A DNA stretch of 32,749 nucleotides, from the NCBI GenBank assembly GCA_947460345.1, contig CANHGM010000029.1:1-32749 (forward strand). Direction: 5' to 3'. Shown here in pieces: positions 14,027 to 32,749 of the stretch. The position numbers were made by a program, and so were the translations under genes. This stretch comes from Bacteroidota bacterium. Its GTDB lineage: Bacteria > Bacteroidota > Bacteroidia > UKL13-3. Positions within the stretch are counted from its first letter, which is position 1; each line of letters begins with the position of its first letter. The notes under the pieces are model-generated. The model saw nothing but the letters and a program-made list of their open reading frames with translations, was not told where the DNA came from and ran no database searches.

Positions 14027-14335
14027 TTATAAATTTTTCAAATCATGAACTATAATATGCCTGACAATCTGGTAGTCAATACCCATATAGTCATGAACAA
14101 TTCTATTTCTAAAACCTTTTATTCTATACCAATTTATTTGGGAATAGGTGTCTTTAAATTCTTCAGGTAGCCTGTTGGCTGCTTCGCCTAATATTTCGAA
14201 GTTTCTAATAACCGCATCACAAGTCTTAGAATCATCTATAAAATCCTCGTAAGTATAATTTAAAGTATAAGTGTTAATTTTACTTATAGAACCTAAAATG
14301 TCTTGAAGCAATAAGGTAGATTCTCTTTTAGACAT
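14027..14335 (-). CDS. hepT: HepT-like HEPN RNase toxin
   Basis: A 102-residue HEPN-domain protein of the old DUF86 family, the toxin of the MntA-HepT system. KGFRNRIVHDYMGID holds the RX4HXY motif (Arg, His, Tyr), the HEPN RNase active site whose Tyr is the residue AMPylated by MntA in characterised systems. IRNFEILGEAANRLP is the conserved helix before it. The start overlaps the stop of the nucleotidyltransferase gene by 8 bp, so the two are co-translated with antitoxin first. All key residues are present, so it looks active; the cellular target (tRNA in one studied case) is not known here. Confidence 0.88.
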   Translation of the reverse strand: MSKRESTLLLQDILGSISKINTYTLNYTYEDFIDDSKTCDAVIRNFEILGEAANRLPEEFKDTYSQINWYRIKGFRNRIVHDYMGIDYQIVRHIIVHDLKNL

Positions 14336-14618
14336 AATTGATATCTGGACTGATAACTTGAAAATTAGAAGGTTTTATTCCTTTTAAGGAAACTAAGTCT
14401 ACTTTGTGTTTCAATAAAATTTCTAATTCACCAGCAAGGTCTATAAATTCAATTCCAATGGGCTTGTCAAAATCTACAAGTATGTCTATATCGCTTTCTT
14501 CATTTTGTTCACCACGACTATAAGAGCCAAATACTGCAATGACACTCAAGCCGTACTTTTTTTCTAACATGGGCTTGTTCACTTTTAAAGTATTGGTTAT
14601 GTAATTCAATGAAGTCAT
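14328..14618 (-). CDS. mntA: MntA-like minimal nucleotidyltransferase antitoxin
   Basis: A 96-residue minimal nucleotidyltransferase. AVFGSYSRGEQNEESDIDILVDF contains the GSX10DXD motif with both metal-binding Asp residues, and a third acidic residue is likely the Asp in KHKVDLVSL. In studied pairs it inactivates HepT by adding AMP groups to the Tyr of RX4HXY. It precedes hepT on the same strand with 8 bp overlap. A perfect promoter sits directly upstream, and its box ends 4 nt before the ATG, so the mRNA is probably leaderless. Confidence 0.88.
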   Translation of the reverse strand: MTSLNYITNTLKVNKPMLEKKYGLSVIAVFGSYSRGEQNEESDIDILVDFDKPIGIEFIDLAGELEILLKHKVDLVSLKGIKPSNFQVISPDINYV

Positions 14619-25949: not shown

Positions 25950-26339
25950 TTAATAACCAGTTTGAATTATTTTTTGAATCACAGTTTCGTTTAGTGGCTT
26001 TGAAATAAAATCTTTAACAAATATATTTGAATTAGCCTTTTCAATATCTGCAGGATTTATAGAAGAGGATAAAATATAAATCCTAAATTGATTTTGAACA
26101 CGACTGTCAAATTTTTTAAATTCTTCTAAGAATTCCCATCCATTCATTTCAGGCATATTGATGTCAAGAAATAAAATTGTGGGCGGTGGCTCAATAGGGA
26201 TATCTAATAAATGCTCAAGACCTTCTGTAGGTTTTTCAAAACAATTTACTTCTGCGGTTTTAAGTTCTTTCTTTATAATGTAAGAGCTTAATATATTGTT
26301 TAGGGGGTCATCGTCAATAACTAGTATTTTTTGGTTCAT
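25950..26339 (-). CDS. Single-domain response regulator (CheY-like)
   Basis: 129 residues forming only a receiver domain. Acidic pocket Asp9/Asp10 (VIDDD), phosphoacceptor Asp59 in ILFLDINMPEMNGWEF, Ser at 91-93 (ILSSS) at the Thr/Ser position, and Lys114 in FISKPLNE. No output domain, so it must act through protein contacts or as a phosphate relay. It starts 23 bp after the histidine kinase stop on the same strand and is very likely its partner. It is the last gene of the FIST-kinase operon. Confidence 0.93.
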   Translation of the reverse strand: MNQKILVIDDDPLNNILSSYIIKKELKTAEVNCFEKPTEGLEHLLDIPIEPPPTILFLDINMPEMNGWEFLEEFKKFDSRVQNQFRIYILSSSINPADIEKANSNIFVKDFISKPLNETVIQKIIQTGY

Positions 26340-26362
26340 GGCTGTTTTAATTTGTAGTGATT

Positions 26363-29300
26363 TTAATTGTCTAATTCAAATTCGATTATAAACTCGGTTC
26401 CAATATTGACTTCACTTTCGATGTGTATTTTTCCATTCAGTGATTCCACTTGTGTTTTTACCATATATAAACCCATACCCTTACCTTCAACTTTTCTGTG
26501 AAATCTTTTGTATAAACCAAAAACAAGTTCTTTGTTTTTAGTCAAATCAATCCCAGAGCCATTATCTCTCACTGAAAGAATTAATTTATTTTGCAGCAGT
26601 TCACTTTTTATTTGAATGATAATAGGGATATCAACCTGTTTATATTTTATACTATTAATTATCAAGTTGTAAAATATGGAGTGCATGTAACTTCTAATAG
26701 AGTAAAATTCATCTATTGCATCAAAGTTAGTTATAATTTTTACGCCCACTTGGTTTATGGTATCTTGAATACTGTCTATTATATTTTGCATAAGTTTTGA
26801 AAAAACAATCTTTTCCTTTTTTTCATTTATGTCTCTTCTAATTTGCAGTATGTTGTTTAAGTCTAAAATTACTTCGTCTAGTTTTTTAATTGATGTAAAG
26901 AGGGCATTAAAGAATTGTTTTTGGTTTGCCTCGTCTAATTTATCATCGTTTAGTATTTTAGCAAAGCCCATAATATTGGCTACTGGCAACCTGAGATTAT
27001 GAGAAACGATATATGAAAATTGCTCGAGGTCTTTGTTTCTTTGGAAAATATCATTCGTAATTTTCTCATTGTCAATCTCTTTTTGTTTAAGGGTAGTTAC
27101 GTCTACCGCATAGCCCACAACATATTTTTTATCGTCGTAGGCATGGAAACGCCTTTCCTTATATTTTATTTTCCCTGTCGAGTCTGGCATGCTCTCTAGC
27201 CAAAATGACTCCACTCCAGTTTGAATAGTATTGTTGAATTGATTTCTTCTGAACTGGGCAGACTCAGATAAAAAAGGTAACCCTTTCAAATTTGCATATT
27301 CAAAATCATCTCTGCCAATTAGCCATGCTCTTAACTCGTCGTTTTTTACCGCCTCTTTATTCAAATATAAATATTTATGCTGATCATCAAACACAGCTAT
27401 ATCAACAGGTATATTATTCAAAATGTTTTGGTAGAACTCCGTTAATTCGATAACCTTGGCTTCTGCATTTTTTAAGTCTGTGATGTCTATGGCGTATGCT
27501 ATCATCAATTTTTCGCCTTTGTATTCGTGCAGAATTAAATTACTATTTGTGTAAGCGGTTTGGCCGTCTTTATTCTGTCTTTTTTCGACGGAAGAAATTG
27601 CTTTTCCATTTTCACGAAGTAATTTAAATTGATTGTCTCTGTCAATCGCAAGGTCCATCGATAAACCACGGTAGGTGCAATAATCATAATTATTTTTACC
27701 TATCAGCCATTTCCGCAGTGTTGCATCTTTAACCGTATTAGGATTAATAAACAAGTAATTACCTTTTTCATCAAATACAGCAACATTACCGGGTATATTG
27801 TTTAGGATGGTTTCGTAAAATTGTTTCTGTTCCTCTATTTCTAATTTAGCCATAACTTTTTCGGTTGAGGGGTAACGTATGGCCATATATTTTTGCGGCT
27901 TCCCATTTTCCATAAACGGTATTATGGTGCTCTCTACATAGTAAAATGAGCCGTCTTTTGCTTTGTTTTTTATCTCCCCTGTCCATATTTTGCCAGCCGA
28001 AATGGTTTTCCATAAGTCTTCAAAAAATTCTTTGGGGTGGAATCCCGAGTTGATTATTCGGTGGTTTTTTCCTAGTAATTCTTCTCTTGAATATTGCGAA
28101 ATCTCACAAAATTTATCATTAGCATAAGTAATATTTCCTTCTAAATCGGTAATACTAACAATAGCAGATTCATCAATAGCTTGCTTATAGTTTATTAAGT
28201 TTATTTCCGTGATTTTTTTTGCAGTAATATCTTTTGATATTCCAATCATAAAAAATGGTGCACCATGCTCATTTTTTAATACTTTTACGTTATTTAAAAT
28301 CCATTTTACTTCGTTGTGGCCGGTTATAATTCGGTATTCTGAAGTAATTTCACCTACTTCAAAAAGGTTCTCACTTTCTTTTTCTACTCTTGCTCTATCA
28401 TCAGGGTGAATAACTTCTAGCCATAAATTTGAATTGGCATACCAATCGTCGAGAGCCATACCAAAGAGGCCAATAGCTGAGTGACTGATGTATTCTAATT
28501 GGTCAGTTTCAATTGATCGTCCCCAAACTGTTTCGTTGAGTGAGTTCAACACGGTCTCTAGCCTGTTTTTGCTTTCTTGTAATTCTATTGTTTTAGTTTC
28601 TTTATCCAGTTTTAATTTATTGATTTCTGAAACATCCTCCAAAAATGAATTGATGGAAGTGATACTGCCCGCTTCAATAATGCAATGCACCTGTCCTTCA
28701 ACCTCAATAGGCAGGCCGTTTCTAGAAATTAATGAATACTTAACTTCGAGAAAGGACATTTTCTTAGTTTGTATATCTTTAAAGAATGCTGCACAGTGGG
28801 CTTGTGAGGCGGGATGAATATAGCTAAATATATTTGAACCAATCACTTCTTCAAGTTGGTAGTTCATTTTAGTTAGCCACGATTCATTTACAAAAACAAT
28901 ATTACCTGCGGGGTCTAATGCGGTTATTAATTCGTTTGTAATTTTCAGCAGGGTGGAGTATTGTTTCTCCGATTTAGATACTTTATTTAAAGTATCCTCA
29001 ATATAAGATTTTTGATTTTCAAGCTCAATTCTGTTTCTTTCTAATTCAGTAACGTCCTGCTGTATAGATACATAACTTTGCAGTTCGCCTTCCTCATCAA
29101 ATATAGGGCTAAGTTGCACAGCCACTTTGAATTCTTGGCCTTGTTTGGTATAGTTGGTAATCACTACTGAACAAGGTTTTTGCTCTCTAATAGCAACTCT
29201 GAGTTCATTAGTTTTTTCTTCCTCTGTGGCAGGCCCACATAAAAAACTGCCAGGTGTTTTACCTATGATTTCTGAAAGAAGATATCCGGTGGTATTTTCA

Positions 29301-30124
29301 AAATGCTTATTTACCCAAGTTGTTTTTCCTTCAGAGTCAGTATATATAACCTTATTTAAGGTGCTTGTTGCTAATTTTGAGAGCTTTTCATTCTCAGCAT
29401 TTTGTTTTTTTATTAGGTTGTTTTTATAAATGGCATTAAACGTATCGCCAGCTAAGGCAGCAAATACTTTTAAAGTAGCCAAATGTATCGCGGTAAAAGC
29501 ATTCGGGGATTTGCTTTCAATGCTCAATAAGCCAATTACTTTATTAGTAGACTTAATTGGGATGTGTATTATTGACCGTGATTTATTTACATTAAATTTA
29601 GTTTGGATATCTGGTTCCTTGTCTGCATCAGTTATAAACAATGATTGGCCAGTTGAAAGCACATTGTTAAGGTACCCGTTCATCAGGTGTTTTGCAACTT
29701 CCTCTTGGTCTTCTTGCGACAATCCTTTTTGGTAAAATAACTTTAATTTGTTTTCTGATTCGTTTAAAAAATATAAACTAGAAATATCACTTTGGGTAAT
29801 TAATTCAATCTGTACCTTAATATTTTCAATGAGTAAGTCATAACTATTAATATCTTTAAAGCTTTCAACTAATAATTCTGAATCTGATAAGCTTTTAATA
29901 ACTTCCTTATTTAATTGGTCGAAGCTATCATTCAATTTGTTATTAATTGCAATATAATCCTCTTCTACAATTTTTAAAGCTTGTTCAGAAAGCTTCTTAT
30001 CCCTATCATATGAGTTGTAAGATTCATTAACAGATTCTAGCAGTTTTTTTATGGACGGCTCAGCAAGCATCTCCTCGCTAAGCGTCTTTTTTATTTGCCT
30101 TTCAAGTAATTTGTTAAAACTCAT
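26363..30124 (-). CDS. Soluble histidine kinase with GAF and six PAS domains
   Basis: 1253 residues, no membrane segments. N-terminal helical segment (1-85), a GAF domain (about 90-245: LITQSDISSLYFLNESENKLKLF and IIHIPIKSTNKVIGLLSIESK), then six PAS/PAC units (about 255-370, 385-500, 520-640, 645-765, 770-890, 895-1010). Unit 5 and unit 6 (NNIPGNVAVFDEKGNYLFIN, NNIPVDIAVFDDQHKYLYLN) are near duplicates. The kinase core follows: SYIVSHNLRLPVANI with phosphorylated His at about 1041, N box NLIINSIKYK, DNGSGID and GKGMGLYMVK. Overlap of 11 bp with the upstream FIST gene and 23 bp spacing to the response regulator make one operon. No receiver is fused. Which signals the PAS units sense is unknown; haem or flavin binding cannot be told. 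Confidence 0.92.
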   Translation of the reverse strand: MSFNKLLERQIKKTLSEEMLAEPSIKKLLESVNESYNSYDRDKKLSEQALKIVEEDYIAINNKLNDSFDQLNKEVIKSLSDSELLVESFKDINSYDLLIENIKVQIELITQSDISSLYFLNESENKLKLFYQKGLSQEDQEEVAKHLMNGYLNNVLSTGQSLFITDADKEPDIQTKFNVNKSRSIIHIPIKSTNKVIGLLSIESKSPNAFTAIHLATLKVFAALAGDTFNAIYKNNLIKKQNAENEKLSKLATSTLNKVIYTDSEGKTTWVNKHFENTTGYLLSEIIGKTPGSFLCGPATEEEKTNELRVAIREQKPCSVVITNYTKQGQEFKVAVQLSPIFDEEGELQSYVSIQQDVTELERNRIELENQKSYIEDTLNKVSKSEKQYSTLLKITNELITALDPAGNIVFVNESWLTKMNYQLEEVIGSNIFSYIHPASQAHCAAFFKDIQTKKMSFLEVKYSLISRNGLPIEVEGQVHCIIEAGSITSINSFLEDVSEINKLKLDKETKTIELQESKNRLETVLNSLNETVWGRSIETDQLEYISHSAIGLFGMALDDWYANSNLWLEVIHPDDRARVEKESENLFEVGEITSEYRIITGHNEVKWILNNVKVLKNEHGAPFFMIGISKDITAKKITEINLINYKQAIDESAIVSITDLEGNITYANDKFCEISQYSREELLGKNHRIINSGFHPKEFFEDLWKTISAGKIWTGEIKNKAKDGSFYYVESTIIPFMENGKPQKYMAIRYPSTEKVMAKLEIEEQKQFYETILNNIPGNVAVFDEKGNYLFINPNTVKDATLRKWLIGKNNYDYCTYRGLSMDLAIDRDNQFKLLRENGKAISSVEKRQNKDGQTAYTNSNLILHEYKGEKLMIAYAIDITDLKNAEAKVIELTEFYQNILNNIPVDIAVFDDQHKYLYLNKEAVKNDELRAWLIGRDDFEYANLKGLPFLSESAQFRRNQFNNTIQTGVESFWLESMPDSTGKIKYKERRFHAYDDKKYVVGYAVDVTTLKQKEIDNEKITNDIFQRNKDLEQFSYIVSHNLRLPVANIMGFAKILNDDKLDEANQKQFFNALFTSIKKLDEVILDLNNILQIRRDINEKKEKIVFSKLMQNIIDSIQDTINQVGVKIITNFDAIDEFYSIRSYMHSIFYNLIINSIKYKQVDIPIIIQIKSELLQNKLILSVRDNGSGIDLTKNKELVFGLYKRFHRKVEGKGMGLYMVKTQVESLNGKIHIESEVNIGTEFIIEFELDN

Positions 30125-31253
30125 AAAATGAAGTGATTGTCATAGTTTGATTGTGCAGTGAACAGGAAACTTCCTCTTGGATGGGTGATATTTCGCCATA
30201 AGAATAAAAGCCTAAAAGCGGCGTTTTGCCTTCAAATAGTTCATTTACAGATTCCACTTCCTCTTCAATTCGCGAGCCCAAGGTAAGCTTTCTGCCCACA
30301 CAACTTATTAAAAGCGAAAAGTCGGGCTTTCTATCTGCTATAGTTAAGGTTTGCTGAGCGGAATTACTGGCCGCAGTTACCAGCGAGTCAAAGTTTGCTT
30401 TCATAAAACGAACCTTTGAGCCTTCGGGAACATCTCCGGCAAAAGTCATAGACTGCTCGGCTTCCGATATGTTTAGTATGGTTCTAACCACAGCTTTTGT
30501 ATTGTCTGGTGTTATAACTGAAAGCGGGAAAAGCAATGCCGAAGATGGCAAGTGAGCAGCCTCATCACCAAGGAAACGTTTGTATAGGTCCAAACAATTT
30601 TTGTGGTCAAGTTCAAATAAGATATTACCTTTTGCCTTGGTAATTATTTTTTCAGGGCCCAAAATATCCCATCCACCTTTAGATCCACTAGTAACAAGGA
30701 TATTTTTGCCATAAAAAGCTACAGCTACAATTTGGCCCTTCTGCGGTTCATTATTAAGACCTACGAGTGTCGATTCGAAATTAGCCCCATCGCCAGCAAG
30801 GCCACCTGTTATTAATACGTTATTATCTAAAGAATCGTTTAAGCCTTTCACCAGTTCACTTCCATTCACGAGGCTTCCATCGGAGATGATGAGAACATAA
30901 GCTAGTTCTGTCTTTGGCAATTTGTTAACTAGGGCTGCAGCAGCGTCGTAGCTGTTTTTAAAATCTAAGATATTTACGTTTGATGTTTCTATTTTGGTTT
31001 TTTCAAACTGCAGTGCTACAGCCACTAAGGTATTGTCTGTAACCTGGTTGTCGATAATCTCACCACTTGTGGAGCAAATAACAATTTGAGGTGCATTAAA
31101 TTTAGAGGTTATAATTGAATAAAAACCGGGGGTGTTTAAAATTTGTTTAGAGCCAAAACACAGAACTAAGTCAGCAGTAATTTTATCTGTCATCAAAGCG
31201 CCATCGCTGGTGGTCCAAGATGCATCTTCGTATTTTAATGATATTGATTTCAT
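30114..31253 (-). CDS. FIST-domain sensory protein
   Basis: 379 residues of the FIST N and FIST C domains, thought to bind small ligands such as amino acids. N part: ADLVLCFGSKQIL, QIVICSTSGEIIDNQ, LITGGLAGDGANFESTLVGLN and GQIVAVAFYGKNI. C part: GNILFELDHKNCLDLYKRFLGDEA, MTFAGDVPEGSKVRFMKANFDSLV, LLISCVGRKLTLGSR and LLGFYSYGEISP, the usual FIST C end motif. No signal peptide, so it is cytoplasmic. Its stop overlaps the kinase start by 11 bp (ATGAGTTTTAA), so the FIST protein is probably the input partner of that kinase. Promoter box TAAATTTG lies 46 bp upstream. Confidence 0.92.
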   Translation of the reverse strand: MKSISLKYEDASWTTSDGALMTDKITADLVLCFGSKQILNTPGFYSIITSKFNAPQIVICSTSGEIIDNQVTDNTLVAVALQFEKTKIETSNVNILDFKNSYDAAAALVNKLPKTELAYVLIISDGSLVNGSELVKGLNDSLDNNVLITGGLAGDGANFESTLVGLNNEPQKGQIVAVAFYGKNILVTSGSKGGWDILGPEKIITKAKGNILFELDHKNCLDLYKRFLGDEAAHLPSSALLFPLSVITPDNTKAVVRTILNISEAEQSMTFAGDVPEGSKVRFMKANFDSLVTAASNSAQQTLTIADRKPDFSLLISCVGRKLTLGSRIEEEVESVNELFEGKTPLLGFYSYGEISPIQEEVSCSLHNQTMTITSFYEF

Positions 31254-31298
31254 TTAAGCTATTTTGCTAAGTTAATTTTGTTGATTTTAATTTCTGCA

Positions 31299-31306
31299 CA
31301 AATTTA
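31299..31306 (-). promoter_or_regulatory. -7 box of the FIST-kinase-regulator operon
   Basis: On the minus strand TAAATTTG fits TAnnTTTG exactly. There is no TTG at the usual distance upstream; activation by another factor is possible. Confidence 0.4.
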
Positions 31307-31373
31307 AGAGCAAAATTTTATTTTTGTTCTTTTAAAAAAAATATATTGAGTGAACAATTCAAATATATAAAGA

Positions 31374-31607
31374 ACAATAAAAAAGCGTGTAAAGTATTAA
31401 TTTACAAGCTTTTGAACAATTTAGGAATTTTATGAGCAGACCGGACGGGTCCATTTCGAACTCTATAAATACTCTGATTATCGAACTTTTGTAACACGTC
31501 TTGTCGTGTCGGGGCAACCTGAAATTACAAGATTTCAAACATGGGGATTATTATGCCTTATTTCTTATAATTTGGTTCAAATATATATAATTTGTTTTTA
31601 ACCACAA
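31374..31607 (-). ncRNA. Candidate small RNA from the right copy of repeat R2
   Basis: On the minus strand a perfect promoter (TTG 31607-31605, 19-nt spacer, TATATTTG 31585-31578) is followed by about 190 nt without a good reading frame and then a hairpin with a T-run (AAAAGC/GCTTTT and GTAAA/TTTAC stems, 31381-31413). Predicted RNA about 31572 to 31376. It contains hairpins ACACG/CGTGT and GGAC/GTCC. It sits just upstream of the FIST operon promoter. Confidence 0.45.
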
Positions 31608-31713
31608 AAAAATCGAAAAATAAAGTATATATATCATGGTTTTTACAACATATATATATATATAATTATAAAATGATTTTTGTAGTGAATTTAAATTATA
31701 TATATATAATTAT
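31443..31713 (-). repeat. Direct repeat R2, right copy
   Basis: Matches 19144-19405 over about 260 bp in the same orientation. Identity is high in the first 130 bp; the AT-rich second half (TATATA runs, TTTTTGTRGTGAATTT) is looser with small length changes. Both copies have a hairpin with similar two-part stem just outside the left edge. The GGAC..GTCC stem is kept although loop sequence and length differ (TGACG region versus GG). Confidence 0.75.
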
Positions 31714-31856
31714 ATTCTTCAATTTGAAGTAATATATATTGCTAGTATGGTATTTTAAAGGCAATTCTTTTTGTCACAAATTTCGACAAGATTTGTGACA
31801 GAATCTTGAAACAAATATTTATTAAATTATCAGAATTCTAAAAACTATATCTTTTT

Positions 31857-31944
31857 GCATATAAATTAAAATAAAAACATAAAATTATACTCAATTGCAT
31901 ATAATTTGAATTTATTTGCTACTTTTGTATGCTAAAGCATATAA
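31857..31944 (+). promoter_or_regulatory. Three GCATATAA operator repeats at exact 40-bp spacing, with hip promoter
   Basis: GCATATAA occurs at 31857, 31897 and 31937. Each is the right half of an inverted pair: TATAT-N6-GCATA, TATAC-N6-GCATA and TATGC-N4-GCATA (31928-31941). The promoter TTG (31895-31897), 22-nt spacer and TACTTTTG (31920-31927) lies between repeats two and three. HipB-type repressors bind such inverted pairs, so autoregulation is expected. Confidence 0.65.
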
Positions 31945-31946
31945 AA

Positions 31947-32144
31947 ATGATTACAATAACTGAATTTGTTAAAACGAGACGGAAACAATTGAAGCTAACC
32001 CAGGAGGAATTTGCTTTGAAGGCGGGTGTTGCGTTAACTGTTGTAAGAAAAATAGAGCAAGGAAAAGAGAACCTGAGCTTATCAAAAGTAAACCAGGTGT
32101 TGAAGATGTTTGGCCATGTTTTAGGACCAGTAATTGAAAAATAA
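31947..32144 (+). CDS. hipB: HipB-like antitoxin / XRE-family repressor
   Basis: 65 residues from ATG at 31947; a longer frame from 31929 begins inside the operator and is not used. EFVKTRRKQLKLTQEEFALKAGVALTVVRKIEQGKENLSLSKVNQVLKMFG is a complete helix-turn-helix of the Cro/HipB type with the LTQEEFA and VRKIEQGK helices. HipB proteins dimerise, bind the operators of their own locus and, in two-gene systems, hold the HipA kinase inactive. There is only a short tail (HVLGPVIEK) after the DNA-binding domain, which suits a three-gene locus where another protein does the neutralising. The next gene starts 2 bp after its stop. Confidence 0.88.
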   Translation: MITITEFVKTRRKQLKLTQEEFALKAGVALTVVRKIEQGKENLSLSKVNQVLKMFGHVLGPVIEK

Positions 32145-32146
32145 AT

Positions 32147-32482
32147 ATGAGACAAGCTATTATTAAATATAACAATATCTTGGCTGGCTTGCTAAAAGAG
32201 CTAGATACAGGCGAGTATGAGTTCACCTATGATGAACAATATGTAAAAAACCACCCTAAGTTATTTATTGTTTTCCAAATGCCTGTGACCAAAAATTCCT
32301 ATAGAAGCAAGAGGCTTTTTCCATTTTTTGATGGATTAATTCCTGAAGGTTGGCTACTAACAATTGCGGCTGAAAGTTGGAAAATAAATAAAAATGATCG
32401 AATGGGTCTGCTATTGGCTTGTTGTCAGAATACCATTGGAGCTGTAAGTGTTCACCCTGTAATAGAAAAACGAGATGAATAA
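32147..32482 (+). CDS. hipS: HipS-like protein (separate HipA N-terminal subdomain)
   Basis: 111 residues equal to the N-terminal subdomain 1 of HipA: NNILAGLLKELDTGEYEFTYDEQYV, LFIVFQMPVTKNSYRSKRLFPFFDGLIPEGWLL and NDRMGLLLACCQNTIGAVSV. In ordinary HipA these residues are fused to the kinase; here they stop and a new gene begins, overlapping by 8 bp. In the E. coli O127 HipBST system the separate subdomain (HipS) is the antitoxin of the kinase HipT, so the same role is inferred. It is translated directly after hipB. Confidence 0.88.
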   Translation: MRQAIIKYNNILAGLLKELDTGEYEFTYDEQYVKNHPKLFIVFQMPVTKNSYRSKRLFPFFDGLIPEGWLLTIAAESWKINKNDRMGLLLACCQNTIGAVSVHPVIEKRDE

Positions 32483-32749
32483 GTGTTTGTATTGCTATAA
32501 AGAATTAGACATCATTGATACCGGTGATTACCATACCAAATGTATCAATGCTTTCTTTGGTTCTAAGTCTGCTCCAGATTTGCCTTATAGACTAGACGAG
32601 ATGGAAAAATTAGCTAAGGAAGCCGTAGAATTGTCGATAACTGTTCCGGGCGTGCAACCCAAATTATCTCTTGGTTGGATTAAAAACAATTTGAAAGATG
32701 GACATCAGGGACGTTTAACCATCATGGATGCATTAGAGGGATTGTATAT
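32475..32749 (+). CDS. hipT: HipT-like Ser/Thr kinase toxin, 5' part (runs off window)
   Basis: 91 residues are visible, starting at an ATG that overlaps the hipS stop by 8 bp. CLYCYKEL at the start with DYHTKC later gives Cys4, Cys7, His20 and Cys23, a small zinc-knuckle. The next part, LSITVPGVQPKLSLGWIK, is the Gly-rich phosphate-binding segment at the start of the HipA kinase domain. The catalytic loop and the inhibitory Ser sites would lie beyond base 32749. HipT kinases phosphorylate aminoacyl-tRNA synthetases (TrpS in the studied case); the target here is unknown. Confidence 0.88.
   Translation, partial: MNKCLYCYKELDIIDTGDYHTKCINAFFGSKSAPDLPYRLDEMEKLAKEAVELSITVPGVQPKLSLGWIKNNLKDGHQGRLTIMDALEGLY

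Follow-up and report, generated by a model that had tools for sequence, protein, structure and literature searches.

The closest described systems are those built around NosP, namely FIST proteins for which heme binding and control of the neighbouring kinase have been reported in the available portions of the papers concerned (PMC12570481, PMC8846402). As far as these partial texts go, a FIST protein binds the adjacent kinase and alters its autophosphorylation (PMC12570481, PMC8846402, PMC11784011, PMC4398556), and NosP binds NosK, whose N-terminal ~130 residues are without a recognised sensory domain (PMC12570481). In the open-licence papers, as partly accessible, a mapping of the contact and control between FIST protein and kinase was not found. 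Neighbouring FIST and kinase genes are common and of a kind already known, and the three-gene sensor operon presented here, carried by a 32,749-nucleotide stretch of DNA from a Bacteroidota bacterium (the whole stretch being called the window), is a system of this known kind with a variant architecture.

Architecture of the operon

From ORF coordinates and sequence, the genes follow one another on the minus strand in the order FIST, kinase and receiver, from 31253 to 25950 (Table 1). The offset between FIST and kinase genes is identical in a sibling locus, L045, and a 23-nt gap separates kinase and receiver. The original prediction of overlapping genes for a FIST protein, a soluble kinase with a GAF and six PAS units and a receiver without output is borne out by coordinates, Pfam, local profile and hydropathy alike, and the domain content supports the predicted pathway, wholly cytoplasmic, with many inputs and a lone receiver. 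Of the loci read, L045 alone shows the same GAF, six PAS units, kinase and lone receiver, its FIST protein being 75% identical to that of the window (partial, 320 columns).

Table 1. Coordinates of the operon features in the window, with the basis of each assignment.
Feature	Position	Strand	Basis
FIST sensor protein, 379 aa	30114..31253	-	Pfam FIST + FIST_C; AlphaFold model; FBXO22 best structural match
FIST stop/kinase start overlap, 11 nt	30114..30124	-	ORF coordinates, sequence
Soluble histidine kinase, 1253 aa	26363..30124	-	ORF, Pfam, hydropathy
N-terminal FIST-partner module, kinase residues 3-70	29915..30118	-	Local profile; adjacency to FIST
GAF domain, kinase residues ~98-227	29444..29833	-	Pfam
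PAS1, kinase residues 241-370	29015..29404	-	Pfam and local profile
PAS2, kinase residues 381-505	28610..28984	-	Pfam and local profile
PAS3, kinase residues 516-640	28205..28579	-	Pfam and local profile
PAS4, kinase residues 641-765, NifL N-terminal likeness	27830..28204	-	Pfam and local profile; TIGR02938
PAS5, kinase residues 766-895	27440..27829	-	38% identity to PAS6
PAS6, kinase residues 894-1020	27065..27445	-	PAS5/PAS6 comparison
HisKA + HATPase_c core, kinase residues 1033-1252	26369..27028	-	Pfam; H, N and G boxes by eye
Lone receiver, 129 aa	25950..26339	-	PF00072, 54 bits; output domain absent

The FIST protein, the one FIST match in the source genome (3.0 Mb, 76 contigs), passes both Pfam cut-offs (PF08495, 150.1 bits for a cut-off of 23.2; PF10442, 117.6 bits for a cut-off of 28.5). 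Its AlphaFold model (pLDDT 89, pTM 0.86) resembles FBXO22 most closely (Z 22.9 over 262 residues, rmsd 3.2), followed by chorismatase (Z 15.4) and cyanuric acid hydrolase (Z 12.3), and a search by sequence at E 0.01 returned no solved relative. Given this fold likeness at Z 12-15, FIST and the chorismatase/cyclic amide hydrolase fold may share descent.

Regarding the kinase, Pfam recognises GAF_2, PAS families, HisKA and HATPase_c, the last two constituting an orthodox HisKA-type core with both domains above cut-off (31.5 bits for 26.9 and 61.9 bits for 26.4, respectively). The highest 19-residue Kyte-Doolittle mean is 1.27, which suggests no membrane span, and transmembrane sensing was ruled out as a hydrophobic stretch is absent from the protein. 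Of the loci compared, L045/L203, which belong to one genome, alone gave a blastp match to the GAF domain at E 1e-5. PAS4 bears the NifL likeness, TIGR02938 giving 185 bits for the whole kinase, below its cut-off of 242, with the best stretch at residues 646-797 aligned to NifL 6-159; NifL binds flavin. This unit is also 52-59% identical, over ~110-126 aa, to PAS units of some Pseudomonadota FIST-linked kinases. The receiver is a single-domain response regulator, Response_reg alone being found and spanning residues 5-125 of 129, and the acidic pair, the phospho-acceptor Asp (FLDINMP), the Ser and the Lys were recognised by eye.

PAS5 and PAS6 are mutual nearest units (38% over 119 aa, score 217, the best other pair scoring 90) and, on sequence comparison, an old tandem duplication. 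They had been called near duplicates, a label that overstates their likeness because the corresponding pair of the L045 kinase is 39% identical while orthologous units of the two kinases are 70-78% alike. The proposed growth of the kinase by internal duplication accordingly holds for one old PAS pair. Elsewhere in the window, toxin-antitoxin-like genes were observed, namely a HepT-like/nucleotidyltransferase pair (14027-14618) and a gene with a HipA N-terminal domain at the window end (32147-32749).

Kinship and origin of the operon

In the 15 nearest rows, L045 aside, FIST proteins are 54-62%, modules 34-51% and kinase cores 18-30% identical to those of the window. Core identity has a median of 0.22 in the 27 pairs that involve the window and have a FIST identity of 0.52-0.64, whereas 1314 other pairs of that FIST band have a median of 0.39 (5-95% range 0.19-0.58). 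Because its core identity is low for its FIST identity, the kinase core of the window looks exchanged relative to its FIST kin, the module having been retained, a difference in catalytic core that the original prediction had overlooked; a median of 0.22, low as it is, falls within the 0.19-0.58 spanned by other pairs. Descent from the second kinase present in L050 was rejected (21% identity over 1080 residues, different start).

The operon was also proposed to have been acquired separately, on the grounds that TATATA is rare in it (about two occurrences) compared with the secreted repeat-protein gene (about twelve). Counted with overlaps, the motif occurs 3 and 19 times, respectively, and the operon stands at the 2.6th percentile (median 20) of 96 segments, each 5.3 kb long, taken from 320 kb of its genome, so that this wider sample shows a real deficit and a trivial scarcity was rejected. 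Ranked by TATATA among 158 genes, the single genes of the operon fall between the 6th and 16th percentiles, and codon use is somewhat atypical, with scores at the 5th percentile for the FIST gene and the 13th for the kinase gene. The k-mer comparison with the genome is nonetheless mixed as evidence for transfer: TATATA is scarce but the tetranucleotide distance (49th percentile, or 85th by observed/expected ratios) and GC (63rd) are ordinary. As a side observation, the whole window holds 132 TATATA vs ~26 expected from dinucleotides, and the stretch just upstream of the operon (31254-32146) has 15 in 893 bases, with a short minus-strand ORF at its far end.

The FIST tree is the better support for separate acquisition, which is plausible. 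A single clade of same-family FISTs is rejected (AU p 6.8e-7, for a group named after the tree was seen, and with 13 long-branch or other-phylum rows and L041 left out), and the FIST of the window is placed with sequences from outside the family, among them Ferruginibacter, Pedobacter and Fibrivirga. An old FIST paralogy with loss is a possible alternative that could also account for this tree. The stronger reading, of the operon as a foreign block of recent acquisition, appears doubtful: the conflict between FIST tree and family, the TATATA deficit and the low FIST codon score speak for it, but tetranucleotides and GC are ordinary and a same-family genome, G004, has a related FIST (L041) close to the end of a contig and broken by a stop, so that acquisition need not be recent.

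An N-terminal module tied to FIST genes

The proteins encoded right after FIST genes are alike over their first ~70 residues while their remaining domains are diverse. This conserved N-terminal module, overlooked in the original prediction, was captured in a local profile of 68 positions. Residues 3-70 of the window kinase match it at E 1.7e-23, as the single match in the genome, a score partly due to construction since the window sequence is one row of the profile. For 31 module representatives, no credible match was obtained in Pfam (best E 0.0037, single members), NCBIfam (best E 0.0047) or among PDB sequences (best E 0.36), and no description of such an N-terminal module was found in a search of open-licence papers. 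Judged by its sequences, the module is an uncatalogued helical 68-residue family in the libraries searched, and a new element of the operon. Two helices are predicted for it, a short one (LLxRQI(K/R)K) and then a long one running on toward the sensor domains; its conserved positions include L7, Q10, Y36 and D42 of the kinase. Helical content is supported by an AlphaFold model of a read-through fusion of the L058 FIST and module, with helices at 387-396 and 405-463 (pTM 0.78, set beside the 0.86 of the window FIST alone, a different protein); the fusion gives no confident prediction of docking.

Among at least 585 confirmed FIST relatives obtained by scanning named genome contigs, 80 were used. 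The product of the gene following FIST is in most cases a hybrid kinase, which may or may not have PAS units, and occasionally a plain kinase or a signalling protein of another sort. The profile matches 86 of 95 such first genes, drawn from 101 loci (not de-duplicated, window included, L025 and L055 being the same place). Six loci are outside this count, namely L039, L041, L094, L119 and L120, with no same-strand ORF >200 aa in reach, and L044, with no FIST ORF. The 86 carriers comprise 52 hybrid kinases, 25 kinases without visible REC, 8 SpoIIE-type proteins and 1 HisKA_2/HWE kinase (L040). The SpoIIE-type partners were assigned by a common motif, confirmed by Pfam in the three checked, and the eight FISTs linked to them come together in the FIST tree as a single group with support 95. 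Besides, the FIST gene of L094 is followed by a free-standing 114-aa protein made only of the module and a charged, helical-looking tail. As for the exceptions, the module lies on the next gene after an intervening, different hybrid kinase in L036 and L038, and on the gene after a second, intervening FIST in L110 and L117, and the N-termini of L043 and L086 are unmatched by the profile. The module is absent from L047 and L049, two close FIST relatives in which an H-NOX gene and an HNOBA-headed kinase follow (Pfam); L051 encodes a kinase of like appearance, no H-NOX ORF being listed between it and FIST. In these two H-NOX operons (L047 11159-11701, L049 11146-11688), two stand-alone sensors thus adjoin ahead of an HNOBA-PAS kinase; a sigma-54 response regulator gene (Pfam) precedes the FIST gene of L047, and a similar-looking ORF precedes that of L049.

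Genome surveys point the same way, on the assumption that within each phylum the FIST and module searches ran over one genome set, as their equal totals and the handles shown indicate. Of 247 Bacteroidota genomes, 58 have FIST and 189 do not; the module was found in 30 of the former and in none of the latter, and 29 of its 31 matches adjoin a FIST gene of the same strand, starting 482-539 bases beyond the FIST-N match. Of 249 Pseudomonadota genomes, 121 have FIST and 41 have the module, the two being found together in 40; 46 of 52 module matches adjoin FIST among the matches listed (spacing 488-667 bases), or 48 with two cases where the FIST gene is cut at a contig edge, and the remaining four score 33-36 bits, FIST being absent from the stretch examined. 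The tally used 72 Bacteroidota and 49 Pseudomonadota FIST rows, the latter nearly all from module-bearing genomes and part of a longer list. Many Pseudomonadota matches span only the second half of the profile, the first-helix motif standing farther upstream at the protein start in the cases examined. Genome-level co-occurrence gave Fisher p values of 8e-23 (Bacteroidota) and 2e-13 (Pseudomonadota), uncorrected for kinship, which overstate independence because genomes within each set share ancestry. The tie is not reciprocal, 28 of 58 FIST genomes in Bacteroidota and 81 of 121 in Pseudomonadota being without the module.

In a set of relatives comprising 58 genomes with that of the window, 21 gave a FIST match, and 15 of 24 module matches lie directly after FIST, 2 one gene later, 1 after a degenerate FIST (G021) and 6 without adjoining FIST (G029 near a contig end). 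In the G021 locus (L044), the FIST degenerate with stops lies upstream of an intact module kinase. Module kinases without adjoining FIST occur in G033, G036, G018, G007, G017:C6 and G204, as well as in G191, G412, G364:C78, G309:C5 and G301:C331, mostly at 25-52 bits, with 74 bits in G204. The module is strongly tied to a FIST gene directly upstream, in two phyla and whatever the output domain.

The module is not the sole N-terminus of this kind. FISTs above the NosP cut-off were found in 15 of 249 genomes, and the kinases encoded behind these and related FISTs (30 loci, 24 readable neighbours) have a conserved N-terminus of another type. A third type heads the partners of the tandem FISTs of three genomes: in L187, L190 and L191, kinases flanking the tandem FIST genes have a common N-terminal helix-like stretch unlike the module. 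Profile comparison detected no kinship among the three types (hhalign probability at most 6%), and a common origin was rejected on this ground. On a tree of 110 FISTs, whose loci were retrieved via FIST, module or NosP queries and which includes a random draw of 45 from the 139 other module-linked FISTs, the type labels need 1, 2 and 1 changes without the 37 rows of no recognised type, and 9, 6 and 2 with them (17 in total, shuffled mean 51), the tool having issued a long-branch warning. This suggests that each FIST clade keeps its own adaptor. It is somewhat more probable than its converse that FISTs address their partners via dedicated N-terminal adaptors of at least three types with no detectable relationship to one another, each tied to a clade, the present one being portable between kinase, phosphatase and free-standing forms. 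If true, this would be a plug-and-play sensor coupling system whose module lies outside the families of the searched libraries.

Proposed pathway and known systems

Because the module stands mostly on the protein encoded right after the FIST gene, it may be the plug, i.e. a FIST-coupling element through which sensors control their partners. Consistent with this, pairwise identities of FIST correlate better with those of the module (0.67) than with those of the kinase core (0.55), the difference being 0.12 (95% 0.03-0.22) over the 84 loci, among 141 unique pairs, that had a full module and kinase core. This reading is also favoured by L047 and L049, which have an H-NOX/HNOBA pair in place of the module, and by the binding of NosP to NosK, whereas the FIST genes lacking the module, the module kinases away from FIST and the other N-terminus of NosP-type kinases speak against it. 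The operon probably encodes a soluble FIST two-component system in which contact with the candidate module lets FIST control the kinase and phosphate passes to the lone receiver. The FIST protein would bind a small ligand and control the kinase by contacting the 68-residue N-terminal module; the GAF and six PAS units would supply further inputs, the kinase would autophosphorylate and hand its phosphate to the lone receiver, and the latter would work through a partner not encoded in the operon. From this arrangement we infer docking of the two proteins, the direction of control and phosphotransfer, and heme or NO as the ligand would be a guess by analogy.

A nitric oxide pathway of the NosP-NahK type, with heme on the FIST protein, is an unlikely reading of the locus. 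It shares the gene logic of a FIST beside the kinase that it controls, as described in the available portions of the NosP papers, and the two close FIST relatives in operons with H-NOX lend it some colour; but the FIST of the window scores 61.2 bits with the NosP model NF041558, far below the curated cut-off of 450, on which membership was rejected, and its partner kinase has an N-terminus of another type than NosP partners. Less probable still is that the module is a dimerisation or signalling-helix segment, with FIST contacting the kinase elsewhere and adjacency reflecting operon inheritance, as its second half predicted as one long helix and the recognisable copies kept by some orphan kinases would allow, but its presence at the head of SpoIIE phosphatases and in the free 114-aa protein, its absence from FIST-less Bacteroidota genomes and its retention in the window, although the kinase core there is unlike that of FIST kin, all argue against it.

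With the module as coupling element, the candidate FIST interface would be small, testable, portable and confined to 68 residues, in the two surveyed phyla and with several output types. It would serve to recognise FIST partners in genome sequences, and it suggests components with which FIST sensors could be connected to outputs of choice.

Compared with known systems, the operon resembles NosP-NahK/NosK-NarR/NosR in its stand-alone FIST beside a kinase and a receiver, the FIST controlling the kinase there according to the partial texts, but differs in a kinase N-terminus unlike the NosP type (hhalign probability 0.4%) and in a receiver without c-di-GMP domain. With the FIST - multi-PAS hybrid kinase operons of Bacteroidota it shares the FIST, the short or negative spacing, the module, the PAS units and a HisKA core, whereas its GAF, other kinase core and detached receiver are, among the loci read, common only to the window and L045. 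H-NOX/HNOBA, as present in L047 and L049, likewise pairs a stand-alone heme sensor with an associated domain at the partner N-terminus; the window operon lacks an H-NOX gene, and no HNOBA was found in its kinase at E up to 1 by the same search that detects it in L047 and L049. By analogy, the best reading of the module is that it would be to FIST what HNOBA is to H-NOX.
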